Origin: Candidatus Schekmanbacteria bacterium
GTDB taxonomy: Bacteria > Schekmanbacteria > GWA2-38-11 > J061
Length of the DNA: 64,000 bases
Direction: 5' to 3'
Assembly (NCBI GenBank): GCA_016219965.1
Contig: JACRJM010000010.1
Location: 1 to 64,000, forward strand
The position numbers were made by a program, and so were the translations under genes. A model generated the notes under the pieces. That model was not told where the DNA came from, searched no databases, and was given only the letters and a program-made list of their open reading frames with translations. The first letter of the stretch is position 1; every line of letters starts with the position of its first letter. This document shows, piece after piece, positions 11,216 through 51,100 of this stretch.

Positions 11216-12529
11216 TTAACTCTTGAAATTATCAATGATAATCTGGGCGATATCTGTAATATTAAGATTATCTTTTTTTCTGCCAAAGGACCAGAAAAAG
11301 GCATCATCCCATGTATGCATTCCCTGCAACACAGTTTTATCGAAAATAACATCCTTTTTTACCGACCCCTTAAGATCAAAACCAGGATAAGAAAGAGCAA
11401 CCATATCTGCTGCCCGGTCAAGATAAGGACCGCTATAGATTTCATCTTTTCTGAACACGTTTTGAATAACCTTCTTCCCTTCGAATTCAACTTTCTCAAG
11501 CTTTTCTTTTATCTCACGCATGATACCTTCACCCTCAGCGCGCTCTACACATCCTTTGGGATACTTACCTTTGTAGTTTATATAAATCCTGCCCGGATCA
11601 AGTACAAACGCCTTTGCAGAATCTGATATATCAGCTACTGAGTCAGGTGAATCTTTCATATAGCTCAAATAACCTTCCTTTGCAAGCCAGCAATTAAGAT
11701 TAATCTCTTTTTCAATTCCGGTAAACCCATGGTCAGAAAGAAGCAGAAATTCATTCCCTTCTTCGCCGTCACCGGCAATATCAAGAAACTTTTTATATGT
11801 ACTTTCAACAAAAGAATCCACTTTGTTGTAATAGTCCAGAAAAGCCTGATGATATTTGTGGCTGTTGTCGCCAAGTGCATCCCAAAGATAATGATGCAGC
11901 CTGTCTGTACCTGTTACAACAACTTCAAAGTAATCCCAATCTTCATTGTCCCATAACAAATCAAGGGCTTTGCTTCTTCCGGCAAGAGTCGCATAAAGTT
12001 CCTTGATAAGGAAATCTTTATCCTCTCTCGCTTTCATCGTATCAATATCGATTTTATAACCCAGTTCCTGCAACTGCGGGACAAGTGTTGCCGGATAAAC
12101 TGCTTTTTTAATATCAATTGCAACGAAGCCAGAAATTAAAACACCATTGATTGGTCTTGCAGGATAAGTTGACGGCTGGTTTATTACAACACTCCTCTTC
12201 CCTATTTCTTTCAAATTATCCCAAATAGCAGGAGCCTTTAAATCATTATAAGATGGGAAAGTAAGAGAATAAGTCTGGGGCTTCAGGTCCATGAACCCGA
12301 AAATACCGTGTGTCCCCGGATTTGTTCCCGTCATAAAGCTTGACCAGCTTACGGCAGATATCTCAGGCAAGGTAACTTTCATGCTTCTCAGATTGCCATC
12401 TCTTTTGAGTTTTTCCATGAATGGCATGACCCCGTTCCGGGTCAGCGCTTCAAGGAGAGTAAAAGGGACGCCGTCAAGCCCTACAACACAACATCTTTTT
12501 TTCTTTTTTTTCTTAAAGAAGAATGCCAT
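11216..12529 (-). CDS. AlkP-superfamily phosphodiesterase/phosphatase 3, soluble
   Basis: 437 residues with no signal or membrane segment; it begins with a lysine run (FFKKKKKKR) directly before the first strand. Motifs: VVGLDGVP, SAVSWSSFMTG (Ser nucleophile position), GTDRLHH, LSDHGFTG and MHTWDDAFF (C-terminal His). It lacks the long beta insert of AlkP 1 and 2, so it is the compact form of the family, about 430-460 residues, like AlkP 4. The protein ends in DIAQIIIDNFKS, where many homologues elsewhere carry an L..LGY tail. It is the fifth gene of the operon, between the APS kinase (31 bases) and AlkP 2 (11 bases). A cytoplasmic location is inferred from the missing signal. Confidence 0.8.
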   Translation of the reverse strand: MAFFFKKKKKKRCCVVGLDGVPFTLLEALTRNGVMPFMEKLKRDGNLRSMKVTLPEISAVSWSSFMTGTNPGTHGIFGFMDLKPQTYSLTFPSYNDLKAPAIWDNLKEIGKRSVVINQPSTYPARPINGVLISGFVAIDIKKAVYPATLVPQLQELGYKIDIDTMKAREDKDFLIKELYATLAGRSKALDLLWDNEDWDYFEVVVTGTDRLHHYLWDALGDNSHKYHQAFLDYYNKVDSFVESTYKKFLDIAGDGEEGNEFLLLSDHGFTGIEKEINLNCWLAKEGYLSYMKDSPDSVADISDSAKAFVLDPGRIYINYKGKYPKGCVERAEGEGIMREIKEKLEKVEFEGKKVIQNVFRKDEIYSGPYLDRAADMVALSYPGFDLKGSVKKDVIFDKTVLQGMHTWDDAFFWSFGRKKDNLNITDIAQIIIDNFKS

Positions 12530-12560
12530 TTTATTTTAAGGTCTCAATTATTGTTAGCTA

Positions 12561-13163
12561 TTATATATAACCGAGATCCTTAAGTCTTGCTTTTATTTCA
12601 TCCTCTTCATCGCCGGAATATTCATTCGCATCTTCCACACGCGGTATGTAATTGAGAATCTCCAGGGTCTTTATAATCTTCGCAACACTCTGTTCTTCTG
12701 TCTCCTTACCTGTATCCACTACTACTTCAGCATTATCAGGCTCTTCATAAGGATCATCAACTCCTGTAAAATTCTTTATCTCGCCCTTAAGAGCTTTTGC
12801 ATATAATCCTTTAACATCCCTCTGTGTAAGAGCATCAATCGAGCACTTACAAAAAACCTCTACGTAGTTTTTAATTAACTTCCTGTTCTCATCTCTGACC
12901 GACTTATATGGAGATATTGCCGCTGCAATTGCAACAACGTCATTGCGTGTAAGAAGATTGCAGACAAACCCAATCCTCCTGATATTTATATCGCGGTCTT
13001 CCTTTGAAAAACCCAATCCTTTACTGAGGTTGGTTCTCACGATATCAGCATCCAATACCTCAACCTTAAGTCCTCTTTCGAGAAGTATCTCCTCAACTTC
13101 CCTTGCAAGAGTTGTTTTCCCTGAACCTGAAAGACCAGTGAACCAAATTGTAAATCCTTTCAT
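12561..13163 (-). CDS. cysC: Adenylylsulfate (APS) kinase with C-terminal LGY tail
   Basis: 200 residues. It phosphorylates APS to PAPS, the sulfate donor for sulfotransferases and the assimilatory route. The P-loop is GLSGSGKTT (about 11-19); DADIVRTNLSKGLGF, EDRDINIRRIGFV and AAAISPYKSVRDENR are APS-kinase signatures. The core ends near residue 175. The last 25 residues are an acidic linker and DEIKARLKDLGYI, an extension not normal for CysC and shared with the two RHH proteins of the operon. Strong AGGAGG before ATG 13163. The gene lies between two AlkP genes, and ATP sulfurylase is two genes upstream, so the operon makes PAPS from sulfate in two steps. Confidence 0.92.
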   Translation of the reverse strand: MKGFTIWFTGLSGSGKTTLAREVEEILLERGLKVEVLDADIVRTNLSKGLGFSKEDRDINIRRIGFVCNLLTRNDVVAIAAAISPYKSVRDENRKLIKNYVEVFCKCSIDALTQRDVKGLYAKALKGEIKNFTGVDDPYEEPDNAEVVVDTGKETEEQSVAKIIKTLEILNYIPRVEDANEYSGDEEDEIKARLKDLGYI

Positions 13164-13186
13164 TAGAATCCTCCTATCCTTCTTTT

Positions 13187-14566
13187 TTATATAATTGGTT
13201 TTCCCACCATTTCCTGCGGAATATCAAGTCCAAAATATTTCAGGATTGATGGGGCGATGTCATATATGGAATAATTATTACCTTTGTTATCCCATTTCTT
13301 CCCCGGAATTTTCCAGATGAAAATTCCATCCTCAGCATGATTTGCATCATCAGGTCCTGTATCATTTTCATAAATATGGATGGTCCCCGTACCTACTGAG
13401 CCTGCAGACCTCCAGTCCAGATTGCCGGGATAAAGGATAAGGTCCGGCGGAACATTATTGCACTCTTTGTAGACATCCTCTGGTTTGAAAACTTTGTTGT
13501 TAATTAGCTTGCCGTTTTCATCTTTCATTGCTTCAAGCTTTCGTATTATCTCGTTCCTGAAATCCTCATATTGCTCTTGCGGGATTACTCCCTCAGGCTC
13601 ACGCCCTTTAACATTAAAAAATATTCTGGAATAATATCCGCCTTCTCCCCACACCTTTGTTTTACTCCAATCTATCATATTCATTTTAAGCGACATCACC
13701 TTTGAAGGCTTTTCCTTTAAAGTCAGATAACCTTCCTGCTGGAACCATTCATTTATACATATGGCACCCATCATTGTCTTAGCGCCATGATCTGATACAA
13801 CCATAACCGATGTATCAGGAGAAATTACTTTAAGCGTTTCTCCTATCTCCCTGTCAATATCTTTGTAATAGTCCTTGATTGAATTTTCAAATGGGTTTCC
13901 CGGTTCGTATAGTCTGTGCGCCTCATCAAAGTAACGCCAGAAGCCATGATGAATCCGGTCAATCCCCATCTCTACCATCATCGCAAAGTCATAGTTTCCC
14001 TTTGTCAGGAAATGCCTGAAGGCCTTGAAACGTCTTCTGCTCATGACATAAATAGATTCAAGGAGCTTTTGTTTATCATCAGTCCTGAAGTCATCGACAT
14101 CAATTATATAGTCTCCGTCAGCAGCTTTGTCGAGTTCTGCTTTTATTTCGTCAGGATAGGTGTACTGTACATCCTTGTTGGGAGTCAAAAAACAAGCTAC
14201 AAGAACGCCATTGAGCGGCTTTGGAGGATAGGTCTGTGGCACTCCAAAAACAAGTGAGCTCATACGGTTCCGGGAAAGGTGGTTCCATACGGTTTTAGCC
14301 TTAACATAATTCGCATTGGCAAAATAAAGATCATCGTAACCATAGCTCTTCCTGTTTCTGAAACCATAAAACCCAAGCATACCGGGATCCTGAGATGTCA
14401 TCATTGCAGTCCAGGCAGGAACTGTAATGGGCGGGACAGTGGAGCGAAGCTTTCCATGTATTCCACTCTCAACCAGAGATTTTAAGTTTGGAAGCTCATC
14501 AAGCCAGCTATCAAAAACTAGCTGCGGCGTAGCACAATCAAGACCAATTACAAGAAGTTTTGTCAT
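13187..14566 (-). CDS. AlkP-superfamily phosphodiesterase/phosphatase 4, soluble
   Basis: 459 residues, no signal peptide. Motifs: VIGLDCATPQ (the usual DG is DC here), ITVPAWTAMMTS (Thr at the nucleophile position, where the other three have Ser), GIDRIHHGFWR, VSDHGAKTM, and NHAEDGIFIW with the C-terminal metal His. The compact length matches AlkP 3, but the sequences are well diverged, so the four AlkP genes are not a simple tandem duplication. It lies between sat (17 bases) and cysC (23 bases), and this position suggests close work with sulfate activation. Candidate activities are sulfatase, phosphodiesterase or PAP/nucleotide hydrolysis; sequence alone does not choose. Confidence 0.8.
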   Translation of the reverse strand: MTKLLVIGLDCATPQLVFDSWLDELPNLKSLVESGIHGKLRSTVPPITVPAWTAMMTSQDPGMLGFYGFRNRKSYGYDDLYFANANYVKAKTVWNHLSRNRMSSLVFGVPQTYPPKPLNGVLVACFLTPNKDVQYTYPDEIKAELDKAADGDYIIDVDDFRTDDKQKLLESIYVMSRRRFKAFRHFLTKGNYDFAMMVEMGIDRIHHGFWRYFDEAHRLYEPGNPFENSIKDYYKDIDREIGETLKVISPDTSVMVVSDHGAKTMMGAICINEWFQQEGYLTLKEKPSKVMSLKMNMIDWSKTKVWGEGGYYSRIFFNVKGREPEGVIPQEQYEDFRNEIIRKLEAMKDENGKLINNKVFKPEDVYKECNNVPPDLILYPGNLDWRSAGSVGTGTIHIYENDTGPDDANHAEDGIFIWKIPGKKWDNKGNNYSIYDIAPSILKYFGLDIPQEMVGKPII

Positions 14567-14583
14567 ACTCCTATGTCTCCAGT

Positions 14584-15735
14584 TTAAGAATTTTTCATGC
14601 TGTTAATGAGCACATCTGCAACTTCGGGACGGGTAAACTCTTTCGGTGGTCTTTGTCCCTCTTTCAGCATCTCACGCACTTTTGTACCGCTAAGAAAAAC
14701 ATGGTTCTCTTTTGAATGGGGGCATGTTTTTGTGGATGCCATATTGCCGCAGGTATTGCAGTAAAAGGCGTGGTCAAAAAACATCGGAGTTATCCCTATT
14801 TCCTTTGGGTCAAATTCCCGGAAAATATAATGGGCATCATATGTACCGTAATAGCTTCCCACACCGGCATGGTCTCTACCAACTATGAAGTGCGTACACC
14901 CGTAATTTTTTCTCGCAATTGCATGGAAAATAGCTTCCGTAGGTCCCGCATATCTCATCGCGGCAGGAAATATAGATATGGCAACCCTTGATGTTGGATA
15001 ATAATTTTCCATAAGAACTTTATAACAATCCCATCGTACATCACCGGGAATATCATCACCCTTGGTATCACCCATAAGCGGATGGATTAAAAGTGCATCA
15101 ACAACCTCCAGCGCACATTTTTGAAGGTATTCATGAGCACGATGAATCGGGTTCCTTGTTTGGAAAGCAACAACACTGTTCCACCCCTTCTCTTTAAAAA
15201 GTGCCCGAGTCTGTGCAGGATCAAGCCTAAAGTCATGAAAACTGTTGTGCCGGGGTTTTCTTATAATCTTTATCTTCCCGCCAAGATATGTCTCACCTAT
15301 GGATTTCAGATACTGAACACCCGGATGAGCCTCATCTGTAGTCCTTAAGATAGCAGTCGCCTCTTCTTCCTTATTGAATTTATATTTATCCTCAATTTCG
15401 ATAACGCCAAGAAGATCATTCCGCTCATCATAGATTGCAGCTTCAGAACCTATTTTATAATCGCCTTCACTTCCATTTTTTGCTGTCAGTACTATTGGAA
15501 CAGTCCAGGGAAGGCCATTAGCAAGCCTTTTATTTTTAAGAATGCTCTTATAATCTTTCTCACCCATAAAACCTTCAAGCGGGCTAAGTGCACCTGTAGA
15601 AATCATTTCAAGGTCACTTGCTTCCCTGCTGTTTATGGTGATTTTTTTTAAGCCCTTTGCTTTTCCCTCAAGAGTCTCAGATTCTGCTCCAGTTACAAAC
15701 CTGTTTATAAGCTTACCGCCATGTGGTTCTATCAT
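14584..15735 (-). CDS. sat: Sulfate adenylyltransferase (ATP sulfurylase)
   Basis: 383 residues, the usual length of the monofunctional prokaryotic Sat. It forms APS and pyrophosphate from ATP and sulfate. The active-site motifs are present: QTRNPIHRAHE (HxxH with the flanking QTRNP) and GRDHAGVG. A four-Cys/His zinc site is visible near the C-terminus (CNTCGNMASTKTCPH), as in the Sat of many anaerobes. ATG 15735 has AGGAG 8 bases upstream. It is the second gene of the operon, directly after the small RHH gene. With cysC it gives a PAPS supply. The window has no aprAB, dsr or PAPS reductase genes, so a role in sulfation or signalling is more likely here than dissimilation, by inference. Confidence 0.95.
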   Translation of the reverse strand: MIEPHGGKLINRFVTGAESETLEGKAKGLKKITINSREASDLEMISTGALSPLEGFMGEKDYKSILKNKRLANGLPWTVPIVLTAKNGSEGDYKIGSEAAIYDERNDLLGVIEIEDKYKFNKEEEATAILRTTDEAHPGVQYLKSIGETYLGGKIKIIRKPRHNSFHDFRLDPAQTRALFKEKGWNSVVAFQTRNPIHRAHEYLQKCALEVVDALLIHPLMGDTKGDDIPGDVRWDCYKVLMENYYPTSRVAISIFPAAMRYAGPTEAIFHAIARKNYGCTHFIVGRDHAGVGSYYGTYDAHYIFREFDPKEIGITPMFFDHAFYCNTCGNMASTKTCPHSKENHVFLSGTKVREMLKEGQRPPKEFTRPEVADVLINSMKNS

Positions 15736-20983: not shown

Positions 20984-22312
20984 TTATCGCACGTTCATAA
21001 CTTCCCTGAATATCTCGTCAAGAATCACAAGGCCACCGTTAAAACCGGTCAAAGGCAAGGGATATAACTGAATCCGGTGTAAGTTTGTCGGAGTAAGCCC
21101 TAACAGAGGAACACCCTTTTTTCTCGCAATCTGAATATCTTCCCCTCTACCGATAAACAACGTAGGCTCTGTTTCATCCAGAAGTTTTTCAATGTCATTA
21201 TTATCAGGGTCGATGGCTATGACCGGATTCACTGAAAACCTGTCACAAAGCTCACCGATTTTCTCCAGCGTTCTGTCATTACAAGTCGAAACTGCAATTA
21301 CCTCCGGCGTCATCCCGAGTTCACCGGTAAGATAGGAAAAAATACCCAGCGCATAAAATGAATCTGCCAGTATGAAATATCTTTGTTTCAATATGACGTC
21401 ATTAAGTGCACTTATGTAGTTTGCTACACTTCCTAAAACTGAATTTGTCTCAGCAACAATTGCTGAATTAATTATTTCGGTGCTGACATTCAAAGCCTTG
21501 CCTACCCTCTCGAGCCATTTTGAAGAAGAGACAGTTCCTACCGGATAACCTTCATCACAAATAACCGTCTCCATGCCAAACCTCTCCGATATTACAGCCG
21601 CTGCTTCAATGCCTACACTTTCGCTTACAACCACATTGAGCGATGCCGAAGGCAGCCGCCTGATATCAGCAAGGGTCATGCCTTCTCCGACAAGAACGGA
21701 ATTTACTGTTGCTCCAATACTCTGAATCAGCCTTGTCATCTCATTAATATTCCCTCTCCAAAAAAGATCATGGACAGGAATAATCCCTATGAGATTAACC
21801 GACTTATCCACACGCGGCATTTCATCAATAACAAGCTGTTCGGCAATTGATTTTAAGGCCATGTTATAGCCGTCAACTGTATTCCCTTTGTATCCCCCAG
21901 CATTAACGGTCAACACTGGTTTCCCTGTTTTTTCAAATGCCCGGGACGAGATTTCCGAGATATTGTCACCTATAGTCTCTGCTGAGCACCCGGTTATTAC
22001 CATCTCGAAATCAATATCAAAATTGTCAGCAAATCTGAGAAGAGAATCATAGAGACTGCCTCCGCCCCCAAATATGACATCCTTTTCCGTAAGAAGCGTT
22101 GAGGCGAAATTCACAGGCTTTGAAAACCGGCCGCTTGCTCCAAGCTGGGTAATGTTAAGGGAAAAATTACACCCCGGCGAACAGTGGGTGATAATACCGC
22201 ATCCTTTCATCACGGCACCGGCAAGAAAGGCGCCGCAAAAAGAACATGAGTATCCGTAAGGAAGTTCACTTAATGCCTGTCGATTCGTCCTTCTGTCAAT
22301 TATGCGTCGCAT
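20984..22312 (-). CDS. Nitrogenase component 1-like protein (NifD/K, NifE/N, BchN/B superfamily)
   Basis: 442 residues. The N-terminus has cysteines spaced as in component 1 proteins that bind a P-cluster-like FeS centre: SCSFCGAFLAG, MKGCGIITHCSPGCNF (about 23-50), and MVITGCSAETIGDNI (about 130). The rest shows three Rossmann-like segments of the superfamily. I see no obvious equivalents of the FeMo-cofactor Cys and His ligands of NifD, so it is probably not a true nitrogenase. Only one component 1 gene is present, so a homodimer (as in CfbD) is the simplest model. It overlaps the upstream NifH-like gene by 17 bases, which suggests translational coupling. The reaction is unknown; groups IV-VI of nitrogenase-like enzymes are the comparison set. 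Confidence 0.75.
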   Translation of the reverse strand: MRRIIDRRTNRQALSELPYGYSCSFCGAFLAGAVMKGCGIITHCSPGCNFSLNITQLGASGRFSKPVNFASTLLTEKDVIFGGGGSLYDSLLRFADNFDIDFEMVITGCSAETIGDNISEISSRAFEKTGKPVLTVNAGGYKGNTVDGYNMALKSIAEQLVIDEMPRVDKSVNLIGIIPVHDLFWRGNINEMTRLIQSIGATVNSVLVGEGMTLADIRRLPSASLNVVVSESVGIEAAAVISERFGMETVICDEGYPVGTVSSSKWLERVGKALNVSTEIINSAIVAETNSVLGSVANYISALNDVILKQRYFILADSFYALGIFSYLTGELGMTPEVIAVSTCNDRTLEKIGELCDRFSVNPVIAIDPDNNDIEKLLDETEPTLFIGRGEDIQIARKKGVPLLGLTPTNLHRIQLYPLPLTGFNGGLVILDEIFREVMNVR

Positions 22313-23159
22313 ATCCCTGTGACGGCATATATTTTTTTATAACGTTCTTTATTTCGCTTAGTGAAACAGGATTGGGAGAAAATGTTTCATCAGGATCAGA
22401 GCTAAGAATTTTTGCTGCAAGGTCCCTGTAAATTTTTGCCTGACTGTCTTCAGGATAAGCCTCAATAACCGTTTTCCCTTCACGCTCTGCATTTTGGACA
22501 GTATGGGAGCGAGGTATATGAATTATAACCGGGAGTCCCATTATTCCGGCTATTTCTTCGACTATCTCCTCTTCATGGGGTACTCCGCGCATATTGCTTA
22601 TAATACCGGATATTGTGCATGAACCATAGGACTCAGCTATTGAGATTATACTCATACACACATTGTTCATTTGAAGGATGGAAAGTATCTCTCCGGAAGT
22701 GACAAGGTAAACCTGTTTTGCAAAACCATCTTTAACAGGCTGGGCGAATCCTCCGCAGACAACATCGCCTAAAACATCGAACAAGGCAAAGGTAATTCCA
22801 TAATTCTCAAACACTCTGTATTGTTCGATAAACCCCAGTGCCTGCGCCACACCACGTCCGGCGCATCCTGACCCGGGCTTTGGACCTCCGCTTTCAATAC
22901 AATAAATTCCGTTGTATCCGCTATGGATTACTTTTGAGAATATCTCTTCTGACATTCCCTCATCCAAACATTCGAGTATCGTTTTTTTCAAGCCGCCGCA
23001 GAGAAGCGCCACTGAATCCCTCTTGGGATCACAGCCTATCTGCATCACTTTTTCATCCATATGAGACAGGGCTGCGCTTAGATTGGAGGCTATGGTTGAC
23101 TTCCCTATACCCCCCTTGCCGTATATTGCCACAGTTCTTATATCTGGTTTCTGCTTCAC
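22296..23159 (-). CDS. NifH-like reductase 2 (BchL/CfbC/NifH superfamily)
   Basis: 287 residues from GTG 23159, overlapping the upstream nifH-like gene by 4 bases (GTGA). P-loop GKGGIGKST (about 15-23), then IGCDPKRDSV, the switch motif of NifH. Both 4Fe-4S ligands that bridge the NifH homodimer are present: GSGCAGRG and VVCGGFAQP. DVLGDVVCGGF matches the family pattern. The N-terminal and C-terminal parts match NifH-like reductase 1 well, so the two are tandem paralogues. As an ATP-driven electron donor it should serve the adjacent component 1-like protein. Whether it forms homodimers or a heterodimer with its paralogue is open. Confidence 0.85.
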   Translation of the reverse strand: MKQKPDIRTVAIYGKGGIGKSTIASNLSAALSHMDEKVMQIGCDPKRDSVALLCGGLKKTILECLDEGMSEEIFSKVIHSGYNGIYCIESGGPKPGSGCAGRGVAQALGFIEQYRVFENYGITFALFDVLGDVVCGGFAQPVKDGFAKQVYLVTSGEILSILQMNNVCMSIISIAESYGSCTISGIISNMRGVPHEEEIVEEIAGIMGLPVIIHIPRSHTVQNAEREGKTVIEAYPEDSQAKIYRDLAAKILSSDPDETFSPNPVSLSEIKNVIKKYMPSQGYATHN

Positions 23160-24022
23160 GCTGACGCTCTCAGTCTTTTTCTAAATGGCGATTGATATTT
23201 TTTCAGCAGGTCTATCAGCTCTTCAAGCTGGACAGGACGGGGAATTACTCCTCTTTTATTTTTGAGGATAATAGAAGCAATTTCTCTGATTTTTTTTGCA
23301 ATATCGCTGTCTGCATATTTTTTTATAACGTTAACTCCCTCTACTTCGCATTCCTGTATTGTGTTATCTCTCGGGATAGAAGCAATGATTGGAACACCTG
23401 TCATCTTTGCGAAATCATTTATTATCTCCCATTCTCCTTTAACGCCTCGCATATTACCGATTATCCCTGATACCCTTGCACTTCCCCCGTCACTAGCGGC
23501 ATCTGCTATGGCAATGCATATATTGTTCGCAGAGTAAAGGGACATAAGCTCTCCGCTTGTGACAATATAGATATCATTTGCAAAACCTTTCCTCATGGGC
23601 ATTGCAAAGCCGCCGCAGACTATGTCTCCGATAACATCGTAAAATGCGACCGTTGCTCCGATCTCTTCAAGCACCCTGTATTTTGATATAAGTTCTAGCG
23701 CTACGGTTACACCCTTGCCTGCGCATCCTTTTGCCGGCTCAGGACCGCCGGTCTCTGCGAAGTAAACTCCATCAGGGGATAACCTGATACACTCCATAAG
23801 TGAATCTCTGTTGCTCCCCTTACTCCTCACATTTTCAAGTATGCCCGGAGTTATCATCTCTCCGCCGTTAAGCATTGATGTTGAATCGGTCTTGGGGGAA
23901 CATCCGATCTGGAAAACTTTTTCACCAAGCATAGTCATGGCAATAGAGAGATTACAGCAGATAGTGGATTTACCTATCCCTCCCTTACCATATATTGCAA
24001 TCTGTTTTATCGAAGATAACAA
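23156..24022 (-). CDS. NifH-like reductase 1 (BchL/CfbC/NifH superfamily)
   Basis: 288 residues from TTG 24022, supported by GGGGAGG 5-7 bases upstream and by the start of the fold three codons later. P-loop GKGGIGKST; cluster ligands in AKGCAGKGV and IVCGGFAMP. The motif that reads GCDPK in NifH and in its paralogue reads GCSPKTDST here: the conserved Asp is Ser. First gene of the three-gene nitrogenase-like operon. A gap of 96 bases separates it from the secreted-protein gene upstream, enough for a promoter, but I see no convincing one. Confidence 0.85.
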   Translation of the reverse strand: MLSSIKQIAIYGKGGIGKSTICCNLSIAMTMLGEKVFQIGCSPKTDSTSMLNGGEMITPGILENVRSKGSNRDSLMECIRLSPDGVYFAETGGPEPAKGCAGKGVTVALELISKYRVLEEIGATVAFYDVIGDIVCGGFAMPMRKGFANDIYIVTSGELMSLYSANNICIAIADAASDGGSARVSGIIGNMRGVKGEWEIINDFAKMTGVPIIASIPRDNTIQECEVEGVNVIKKYADSDIAKKIREIASIILKNKRGVIPRPVQLEELIDLLKKYQSPFRKRLRASA

Positions 24023-24118: not shown

Positions 24119-24664
24119 TTATTGGCTCTGAAGCCCTGTGAAGTTTAATTTTGCTTTAAAATCTATGGTCCCGACTTTTATTGTCACGCCAAATTTCTCA
24201 TAACTTATTTCACACTGGGCTTTGATATCCTCAGAGCCATCCAATGTACCCTCAGGTGATACATTTATTGCAACCGCCTTCTTGTCCACATCTATGTTCA
24301 GATCAAAGTTTTTAATATATTTGCTATATTCACCTTCAACATAATCTTTGACCATATCTTCTATGTCATCGCCGTCTAGATTGATGGTTATTTTGTCTTT
24401 TTTGATGTTGTACTTCCATTTCCCGTTAAAGAGGAATTGAGTAATATTGATTTTTATCTTTTTTTTCCCAAAGACAACTTTCTCTCCGCTGAAACTATCG
24501 GTGTCAGTCAGATACTTGCCTTTATATCCTGTCTTGATTTCATAGGTGCCGTCAATAAGCCATGTCCCTGAAGGAGCTGCGGCAAATGCAGAAGAGAGGC
24601 TGCAAAATAAATATCCTGCGGCAAGAAACAACAACAAACAGTTCCATTTAAGAGTTTTCAGCAT
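24119..24664 (-). CDS. Secreted protein of unknown function
   Basis: 181 residues with a signal peptide (LLLFLAAGYLFCSLSSAFAA, cleavage near residue 28). The mature part is beta-rich and begins GTWLIDGTYEIKTGYKGKYL, like small lipocalin or DUF-type beta-barrels that report a computed quantity; no motif names a function. It lies 21 bases after the UPF0182 gene and may be its partner. I do not recognise the family. Confidence 0.6.
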   Translation of the reverse strand: MLKTLKWNCLLLFLAAGYLFCSLSSAFAAAPSGTWLIDGTYEIKTGYKGKYLTDTDSFSGEKVVFGKKKIKINITQFLFNGKWKYNIKKDKITINLDGDDIEDMVKDYVEGEYSKYIKNFDLNIDVDKKAVAINVSPEGTLDGSEDIKAQCEISYEKFGVTIKVGTIDFKAKLNFTGLQSQ

Positions 24665-49141: not shown

Positions 49142-49189
49142 TTAAATAATTGCTTCATTAAATAACTTTTTAAAGAAAAAGCAAACAGA

Positions 49190-51100
49190 TTGAAAGCTGA
49201 TATTGTAAACATCCTAAGGATAAATCTTTCAGACGGCAAAGTGTCGGGCTCATCGCGTGACTCTTCTTTCAGGAAACAATTCATAGGCGGAAGAGGAATA
49301 AACTCAAAGCTTCTCTTTGATGAGACAGGCCCTGACGTAAAACCTCTCTCAGAAGAAAACAAACTCATATTCGGGACAGGCGCCCTTTCCGGAACCAAGT
49401 CGCCTGCTTCCGCGCGCTTTACCGTAAGCGCAAAATCGCCTCTCACAGGAATCTTAGGCGATGCCAATGCCGGCGGCAACTTCGGCCCTGAGCTTAGAAA
49501 ATCAGGATGTGATCATCTAATAATCGAAGGAAAATCAGACCATCCGGTTTACATATTCATAAATAACGGAAAAGTTGAAATAAGGGATGCTTCAAAACTC
49601 TGGGGGAAGAACACCCGCGAAACAGAAACGCTTATAAGAAAAGAGCTTGGAGATGACAGGGTAAGAATTGCCTGCATCGGACAGGCAGGAGAAAACCTCG
49701 TAAGGTTCGGTTCGGTGATGCATGAGGAAAGGGCAGCCGCAAGAACAGGGATGGGAGCGGTAATGGGCTCAAAGAAATTAAAAGCCGTAGCTGTCCGCGG
49801 GACAAATGAAGTGGAGATAGCTGACGCAAAAAAATTTAATCTTCTTAAACGCGATCTCCACAAAAAAGCTTCAGAGACAAAGCTTGCCAAGACCATAGGC
49901 AAATACGGCGGAACAATGGGAACACCTATAACCGACAGGATTGGTATAATCGCCCTCAAGAATTTCAACCAAACTTCAGGCTTCGAAAATGTCCAGAATT
50001 TCGATCCGGAAAAGATAGTAGAAAAATTCTATACCGGCAATAAATCCTGCTATGCATGCCCCATTCACTGCGGACACAAGTTTGAAATAAAAGAGGGACC
50101 ATACAAAGGGGAGTGGGGAAACAAAATCGAAGAGGGAGTGGTGACTCCCTTCGGACCAACTTGCTATAACTCGGACATCGCTTCCATATTCAAAATCAAC
50201 AACATGGTCAATCAGTACGGCATGGATTCCCTTGAAGCAGGCGGGCTCATCGCTGTCGCCATCGACTTGTTCCAGAATGGCGTAATCACTGAAAAAGACA
50301 CTGACGGGCTCATTCTTGACTGGGGGAAACCGGAAATTCTGATGAAGCTAATAGACAAGATTGCTTTCAGGCAGGATATAGGTGACATACTTGCTGAGGG
50401 CGCTCTCCCTGCGGCAAAAAAAATCGGACATGGCGCGGAAAAATATATCAGCCACAGCAAGGGAATGACTTTTGGAGGCATAGACCTGCGTATAATGAAA
50501 GGTCTTGCCCTTTGTCTTGCCACAGCAACAAGGGGGTGCGACCACCTAAGAGGCGGAGTGCCTACTGAAACAGTAGGAGGATTGGGAAGATACACACCGG
50601 AAATGGCGCTAAAGATGTTCGGGACAACGGAAGTCCTTGACCATAAATCCTATGTCAAGGCGGTCGTGGCAATACGTATGCAGCATATAGCCGCCATTAC
50701 CGATTCACTTGAGATCTGCCGCTTTGCAAGCGAATCAAACGGCGGAGGACTGACTATTGATGACCAGACAGAGCTTTTCAATGTAATCACAGGATTCAAT
50801 CTCTCTCTTGATGAGATACTTGAGGCAGGGGAACGGATATTCAACATTGAAAGGCTTTACATAAATAGAGAAGGGATAAGGCGCACTGACGACAGACTAA
50901 TAGGAAAATGGGTGGATGGCCCTGTGCCCTCAGGCCCGTTTAAAGGAGAGATAATCGACGAGCAAAAATGGGAAGGGATGCTCGATGATTATTATACGAG
51001 AAGAAACTGGGATGTAAAAACAGGTATCCCTACCCGAAGTAAACTAGAATCTCTTGGTCTTACCTCAGAAGCAGAGTGGTTAAACCGGATAGGCAAATAA
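49190..51100 (+). CDS. Aldehyde:ferredoxin oxidoreductase (tungstopterin family)
   Basis: 636 residues from TTG 49190. Oxidises aldehydes to acids (or the reverse) with ferredoxin, using a bis-pterin tungsten site. The 4Fe-4S ligands are in CYACPIHCGHKF (CxxCxxxC, about 286-293) with the distant fourth Cys in TDSLEICRFAS (about 510). N-terminal motifs GGRGINSKLL, SGTKSPASARFTVSAKSPLT and GNFGPELRKSGCD are standard. EEGVVTPFGPTCYNSD and ATATRGCDHLRGG are pterin-site motifs. It overlaps the next gene by 25 bases. Confidence 0.95.
   Translation: MKADIVNILRINLSDGKVSGSSRDSSFRKQFIGGRGINSKLLFDETGPDVKPLSEENKLIFGTGALSGTKSPASARFTVSAKSPLTGILGDANAGGNFGPELRKSGCDHLIIEGKSDHPVYIFINNGKVEIRDASKLWGKNTRETETLIRKELGDDRVRIACIGQAGENLVRFGSVMHEERAAARTGMGAVMGSKKLKAVAVRGTNEVEIADAKKFNLLKRDLHKKASETKLAKTIGKYGGTMGTPITDRIGIIALKNFNQTSGFENVQNFDPEKIVEKFYTGNKSCYACPIHCGHKFEIKEGPYKGEWGNKIEEGVVTPFGPTCYNSDIASIFKINNMVNQYGMDSLEAGGLIAVAIDLFQNGVITEKDTDGLILDWGKPEILMKLIDKIAFRQDIGDILAEGALPAAKKIGHGAEKYISHSKGMTFGGIDLRIMKGLALCLATATRGCDHLRGGVPTETVGGLGRYTPEMALKMFGTTEVLDHKSYVKAVVAIRMQHIAAITDSLEICRFASESNGGGLTIDDQTELFNVITGFNLSLDEILEAGERIFNIERLYINREGIRRTDDRLIGKWVDGPVPSGPFKGEIIDEQKWEGMLDDYYTRRNWDVKTGIPTRSKLESLGLTSEAEWLNRIGK

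Follow-up and report, generated by a model that had tools for sequence, protein, structure and literature searches.

A putative two-gene NifH-type reductase for a NifB-dependent relative of methylthio-alkane reductase in Candidatus Schekmanbacteria

A genome of Candidatus Schekmanbacteria probably encodes a NifB-dependent enzyme, related to methylthio-alkane reductase (MAR), that would be driven by a heterodimer of two NifH-like proteins, H1 and H2, with an asymmetry built into the pair. The genes for H1, H2, and a beta subunit of component 1 lie in the window, i.e., the whole 64,000-nucleotide stretch of DNA analyzed here; together with an alpha subunit and NifB, whose genes lie at two sites elsewhere in the genome, they would form one nitrogenase-like enzyme. 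The observations on which this reading draws are the gene set and its conservation, the ligand residues, two H1-H2 fusions, a substitution in H1, and the phylogeny; from the sequences, we predict that the enzyme is active.

Gene set of the window and the genome

The five genes are as follows:

23156..24022, minus strand: H1, NifH-like reductase subunit, 288 amino acids (Pfam Fer4_NifH 274 bits; NCBIfam nifH 291 bits, below the cut-off of 394)
22296..23159, minus strand: H2, NifH-like reductase subunit, 287 amino acids (Pfam Fer4_NifH 270 bits; NCBIfam nifH 300 bits, below the same cut-off)
20984..22312, minus strand: beta subunit of component 1 (NifK/MarK-like), 442 amino acids (Pfam Oxidored_nitro 234 bits; best PDB match MarK 9d9u_C, 133 bits; tree; ligand columns)
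G000:C4:589307-590734 (L008:9308-10735), outside the window and unlinked: alpha subunit (NifD/MarD-like), 475 amino acids (PDB matches to NifD and MarD alpha chains of 137 and 117 bits; tree)
G000:C3 (L087:9053-10273), outside the window: nifB, 406 amino acids (407.7 bits against a curated cut-off of 343.65)

The initial annotation of the window had described three overlapping genes of a nitrogenase-like operon, and its coordinates and overlaps are correct: these are three minus-strand open reading frames, of which H1 and H2 share 4 bases (GTGA) and H2 and beta share 17. H1 begins with TTG, preceded by a GGGGAGG ribosome site, and H2 with GTG; the two proteins are 46% identical. Given Pfam scores of 270–274 bits for the reductases and 234 bits for beta, these are not chance matches. 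A promoter scan yielded no more sites than shuffled sequence did. Positions 24119–24664, immediately upstream of H1 and on its strand, encode a probably secreted protein of 181 amino acids that has no Pfam match and no relatives in the loci examined. Elsewhere in the window (11216–15735), genes that on reading of their sequences resemble sulfate adenylyltransferase and APS kinase stand among two phosphodiesterase/sulfatase-like genes, and may perhaps form a PAPS-dependent sulfation cluster.

The genome (3.58 Mb, 98% complete) contains exactly two full NifH genes and two component 1 genes. The window's component 1 protein had been taken as a single one with no D/K or E/N partner, a premise said to fall if a second component 1 gene of the same set were present in the genome; such a gene exists at C4:589307-590734, where it stands alone among housekeeping genes, and the premise is refuted. 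The component 1 tree assigns the unlinked protein to the D side, with MarD as its neighbor (98/98), and the window protein to the K side, with MarK as its neighbor (98/95); the window gene encodes the beta subunit and the unlinked gene the alpha subunit. This accounts for a correct observation of the initial annotation, that the window protein has no clear cofactor ligands, because it is a beta subunit and the cofactor cysteine (C267) sits on alpha. NifEN is absent, as the two component 1 genes are the only ones in the genome; with nifB present, this is therefore a NifB-type enzyme set that lacks the scaffold of nitrogen fixation.

On the nifB contig, two adjoining proteins of 189 amino acids (L087:5694-6854), 25% identical to each other and with no Pfam or NCBIfam match, are encoded with a carbon-nitrogen hydrolase, close to nifB, on one side and an acyl-CoA dehydrogenase-like gene on the other. 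Carbon-nitrogen hydrolases occur both near this nifB and near the related cluster of PL23a_bin.76 described below, but are only 28% identical, and so we made no use of the idea of a nitrilase-like reaction or C-N substrate.

Ligand and switch residues

Alignment of 10 H1 proteins with 40 other NifH proteins revealed one consistent difference at a catalytic position. The P-loop, the switch aspartates, and the cluster cysteines (Cys100 and Cys136 in H1; Cys99 and Cys135 in H2) are intact in both window proteins, with the sole exception of switch I Asp39 (Azotobacter numbering), which in H1 is replaced by Ser42 (codon 23897–23899), giving GCSPK instead of GCDPK; H2 retains it as Asp44. The earlier statement that both reductases keep the P-loop and the two cluster cysteines thus stands, but it overlooked this loss. 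Serine occupies the position in 10/10 H1 sequences and in 0/40 of the others, all 40 of which have aspartate, while Lys10, Lys15, Ser16, Asp43, Asp125, Asp129, Cys97, and Cys132 are unchanged in H1 and other NifH alike. H1 also has alanine instead of glycine three residues before its first cluster cysteine. When Asp39 of the Azotobacter Fe protein was exchanged for Asn, the protein reportedly bound the MoFe protein abnormally tightly in a 1997 study. Crystals of this Asp39Asn variant have been obtained (1xd8). Residues 39–69 make up the switch I region, which relays the nucleotide state to the contact with component 1 (PMC7963043).

The substitution marks a small set of genomes. A scan of the contigs of approximately 85,000 species genomes (genome_contigs) with the motif Q[ILM]GCSPKxDST, imposing no condition on neighboring genes, gave eight records, and in every record with enough DNA a second NifH lies directly downstream of H1 or is fused to it. 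In a protein search of 386 related genomes, which located 53 NifH places, a looser motif matched 4/4 H1 and 0/49 others. Pattern scans of the phyla of G034 and G089 covered one and two genomes, respectively. Two other positions vary in a comparable way: nearly every single reductase has small, unvarying residues at 160 and 161, and these are changed to glutamine and a larger residue in one member of each pair, namely H2 in what we call type a and H1 in type b (defined below). Such changes in only one partner may point to complementary subunits.

The catalytic subunits carry the ligands of two clusters. Three P-cluster-type cysteines are found in alpha (Cys59, Cys84, and Cys153) and three in beta (Cys23, Cys48, and Cys109), the latter being the N-terminal cluster cysteines noted in the initial annotation; alpha additionally has the cofactor-type Cys267 and a tryptophan at the position of MarD Trp195. 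The cysteines of both subunits match those described as cluster ligands in MarD and MarK (PMC12552129). A second cofactor ligand, equivalent to NifD His442 or MarD His429, was not found in alpha: the His442 position is asparagine in the PDB alignment with NifD, and the MarD Arg428-His429 position reads Asn-Arg in the alpha subunits of the window genome and of its relative G001, compared to Arg-His in the MAR protein of G332.

Conservation, fusions, and phylogeny

The initial annotation proposed that conserved neighbors be sought in other genomes, and they are present: H1 and H2 occur with beta, alpha, or nifB in G001, which belongs to another genus of the same family, and in bins of Candidatus Tectomicrobia, PL23a (PL23a_bin.76), KSB1, and Nitrospinae. 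G001 repeats the arrangement of the window genome, with H1-H2-beta together and alpha alone elsewhere; it also has the first part of a nifB gene, cut off by the end of a contig and neighbored, as in the window genome, by the endonuclease IV gene. Identities between the two genomes are 55% for H1, 57% for H2, 53% for alpha, and 49% for beta; with all four proteins at 49–57%, they evolve alike. The order is nifB-H1-H2-alpha-beta in the Tectomicrobia bin and nifB-alpha-beta-H1-H2 in PL23a_bin.76, in each case as a single operon, and again nifB-alpha-beta-H1-H2 in the KSB1 bin, where H1 and H2 are fused. The complete type a set, i.e., an H1 bearing GCSPK that adjoins or is fused to an H2 bearing GCDPKRDS, together with alpha, beta, and NifB, was found in the window genome, G001, Tectomicrobia, PL23a, and KSB1. 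Two features of these genomes count against our preferred reading: in the window genome, alpha lies apart from the H1-H2-beta genes, and the beta subunits of Tectomicrobia and KSB1 keep only 1/3 of the P-cluster cysteines.

The KSB1 fusion is split between two contigs: H1 stands at the end of one, and another opens with the H1 tail, a 107-amino-acid linker, and H2 in one open reading frame; the join is backed by a 19-base overlap, and the fusion is evident from the second contig alone. In the Nitrospinae bin, H1 and H2 form a single polypeptide of 584 amino acids, followed by nifB. The only alpha and beta proteins of that bin were rejected as partners of its fused reductase, as they fall in another clade of the tree, together with NifH-alpha fusions. 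Single open reading frames joining NifH-like and component 1-like domains were seen at L076:4961-7135 (G197; 724 amino acids), L130:1153-3372 (PL23a_bin.76; 739 amino acids), and L075:7206-9845 (G259; 879 amino acids), two of which group with the Nitrospinae alpha in the component 1 tree. In an AlphaFold model of a fused H1-H2 reductase, the halves fold well (pLDDT 82) and match Fe protein structures; their relative placement is not fixed (pTM 0.54), and we therefore did not use the model as evidence for pairing.

A second kind of pair, type b, occurs in four deltaproteobacterial bins (L094, L098, L091, and L095), with H1 (GCSPKNDST), H2 (GCDPKHDST), alpha, and beta. NifB is present in type a (window genome, G001, Tectomicrobia, Nitrospinae, KSB1, and PL23a), whereas the same search found none in type b; the type b alpha has no conserved cofactor cysteine and the type b beta ends in a PCP_red tail of the BchB type. 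MarR-type regulators lie upstream of the L094 locus. An aldehyde:ferredoxin oxidoreductase-like gene in the window (49166–51097) is 34% identical to one beside the PL23a cluster, and another such gene lies beside a type b cluster (L134); it may be merely a common gene of anaerobes.

Reductase trees, computed with the Asp39 site masked, placed H1 beside H2 as its sister clade in type a (100/99 for the two combined) and likewise in type b (100/100 for the two combined). A single origin of all H1 was rejected by the AU test (p = 0.00057), with gene conversion as a caveat, and so was a single clade of all H2 (p = 7.8e-5); serine at the Asp39 position needs two changes on the tree. Since H1 and H2 are sisters within each type and the joint clades are rejected, the pair appears to have arisen twice, with the upstream copy losing Asp39 both times. 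Alternatively, the impression of two independent duplications could be a product of gene conversion between tandem copies. The alpha and beta subunits associated with paired reductases do not form one clade apart from MAR, as the PL23a alpha groups with MAR.

Relation to known enzymes and alternative explanations

The initial annotation also asked whether the proteins fall outside known clades, and curated cut-offs confirm this for the nitrogenase, CfbC/CfbD, and DPOR families. Nitrogenase was rejected with nifH scores of 291–300 against 394, nifD of 152 against 654 for alpha, and nifK of 78 against 427 for beta; the system shares with Mo-nitrogenase (NifHDK, NifEN, NifB) the fold, the P-cluster cysteines, the cofactor cysteine (Cys275), and NifB, but has two reductases, asparagine at the His442 position, and no NifEN. 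CfbCD likewise consists of a NifH-type reductase and a component 1 protein, but CfbD is a homodimer with neither a NifK partner nor a cofactor, whereas the present system has alpha, beta, and NifB; scores were 280–291 against 402 for CfbC and 30 against 268 for CfbD. DPOR (BchLNB) and COR (BchXYZ) also use a NifH-type reductase, and the BchB-type PCP_red tail recurs in the separate type b systems; they differ from the window system in its NifB and cofactor cysteine, and were rejected at 179–191 against 345 for BchL and 114 against 490 for BchB, with the BchL and BchX cut-offs missed. The isethionate reductase IsrBHDK (NflHDK-type) resembles it in combining a group IV-type H, D, and K set with a radical SAM partner, but has one reductase rather than two, and the similarity of its radical SAM protein to NifB is given as only 13.8% (PMC11423573), compared to the true NifB found here; our trees took in no Isr sequence.

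MAR (MarBHDK; PDB 9FMG and 9D9U; PMC12552129) is the closest solved enzyme, and the window alpha and beta are sisters of MarD and MarK. The two systems have in common three P-cluster cysteines in each catalytic subunit, the cofactor cysteine (MarD Cys270, alpha Cys267), the Trp195 position, a NifB-type radical SAM protein, and an ATP-dependent NifH-type reductase. MAR, however, uses a MarH homodimer, whereas here two distinct reductases, one without Asp39, form a clade separate from MarH; alpha and nifB are unlinked, and there is no gene context of sulfur assimilation. Arg428-His429, in loop I of MarD, is a possible hallmark of MAR (PMC12552129). As neither this motif, replaced by Asn-Arg, nor a single MarH reductase was found, we did not class the system as MAR and kept MAR as its nearest relative. 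The kinship of its catalytic subunits and the agreement of their ligands would suit an ordinary MAR with an incidental MarH duplicate, yet the same differences, the lack of methionine or sulfur-starvation genes beside alpha or the H1-H2-beta operon, and the retention of the duplicate in six genomes of different lineages make this very improbable. The version first proposed, in which two reductases would serve a homodimeric component 1 resembling CfbD, fits the absence of a second component 1 gene from the window, but is hardly credible given the alpha genes of the window genome and G001 and the genomes in which alpha and beta stand side by side with H1-H2.

Two further alternatives concern the roles of the reductases. 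H1 and H2 might be separate homodimers that take turns on one catalytic component, each suited to a different electron donor, condition, or stage of the reaction; both resemble complete NifH, with all catalytic residues kept except Asp39 of H1. We consider this unlikely, as H1-H2 fusions exist in two lineages, H2 is always directly downstream of H1, and positions 39, 160, and 161 are changed in one copy of each pair, never both, in two unrelated lineages. Still less probable is that H2 alone is the working reductase and H1 a NifH-like maturation factor for building the P-type cluster or loading the cofactor. NifH plays such roles in nitrogenase (PMC9571451), and several of the genomes carry nifB in linkage with H1-H2; against this, type b has the same asymmetry with no nifB or conserved cofactor cysteine, and the fusions bind H1 to the reductase at a 1:1 ratio. 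The hypothesis of a heterodimeric reductase, put forward in the initial annotation, is well supported by the fusions, the fixed order of H1 then H2, and the recurrent change of Asp39 to serine.

The heterodimer model would work as follows. H1 and H2 would together form an Fe protein in which two cysteines from each hold a single shared [4Fe-4S] cluster, and whose two ATP sites are unequal owing to the loss of the switch I Asp39 from H1. We infer that this pair docks on alpha-beta in a single fixed orientation, and that electrons would pass to a P-type cluster held by six cysteines of alpha and beta and on to a NifB-derived cofactor, presumably of the [Fe8S9C] type, held by alpha Cys267. With catalytic subunits that are sisters of MAR, the reaction may be one not yet described; the most economical guess, offered with low confidence, is reduction of a C-S bond or another small molecule as in MAR.

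To our knowledge, all characterized nitrogenase-type reductases are homodimers with two identical ATP sites. A literature search, with most subscription papers outside its coverage, returned no paper on a two-subunit or two-gene heterodimeric reductase of this kind. It is quite possible, if a shade doubtful, that the nitrogenase superfamily gave rise to obligate heterodimeric Fe proteins on two or more occasions, in every case through loss of Asp39 in one protomer, which fixed the two ATP sites as well as how the pair is oriented on component 1, and that the pair of the window lineage powers an enzyme with a NifB cofactor and a substrate not yet described. Asymmetric nucleotide binding in a nitrogenase-type reductase is seen in a solved structure (4WZA). 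A natural pair that splits the two ATP sites onto two genes would make it testable, by altering one site at a time, whether such reductases use their sites equally or in turn; on the catalytic side, the system would represent a further NifB-dependent enzyme outside N2 fixation.
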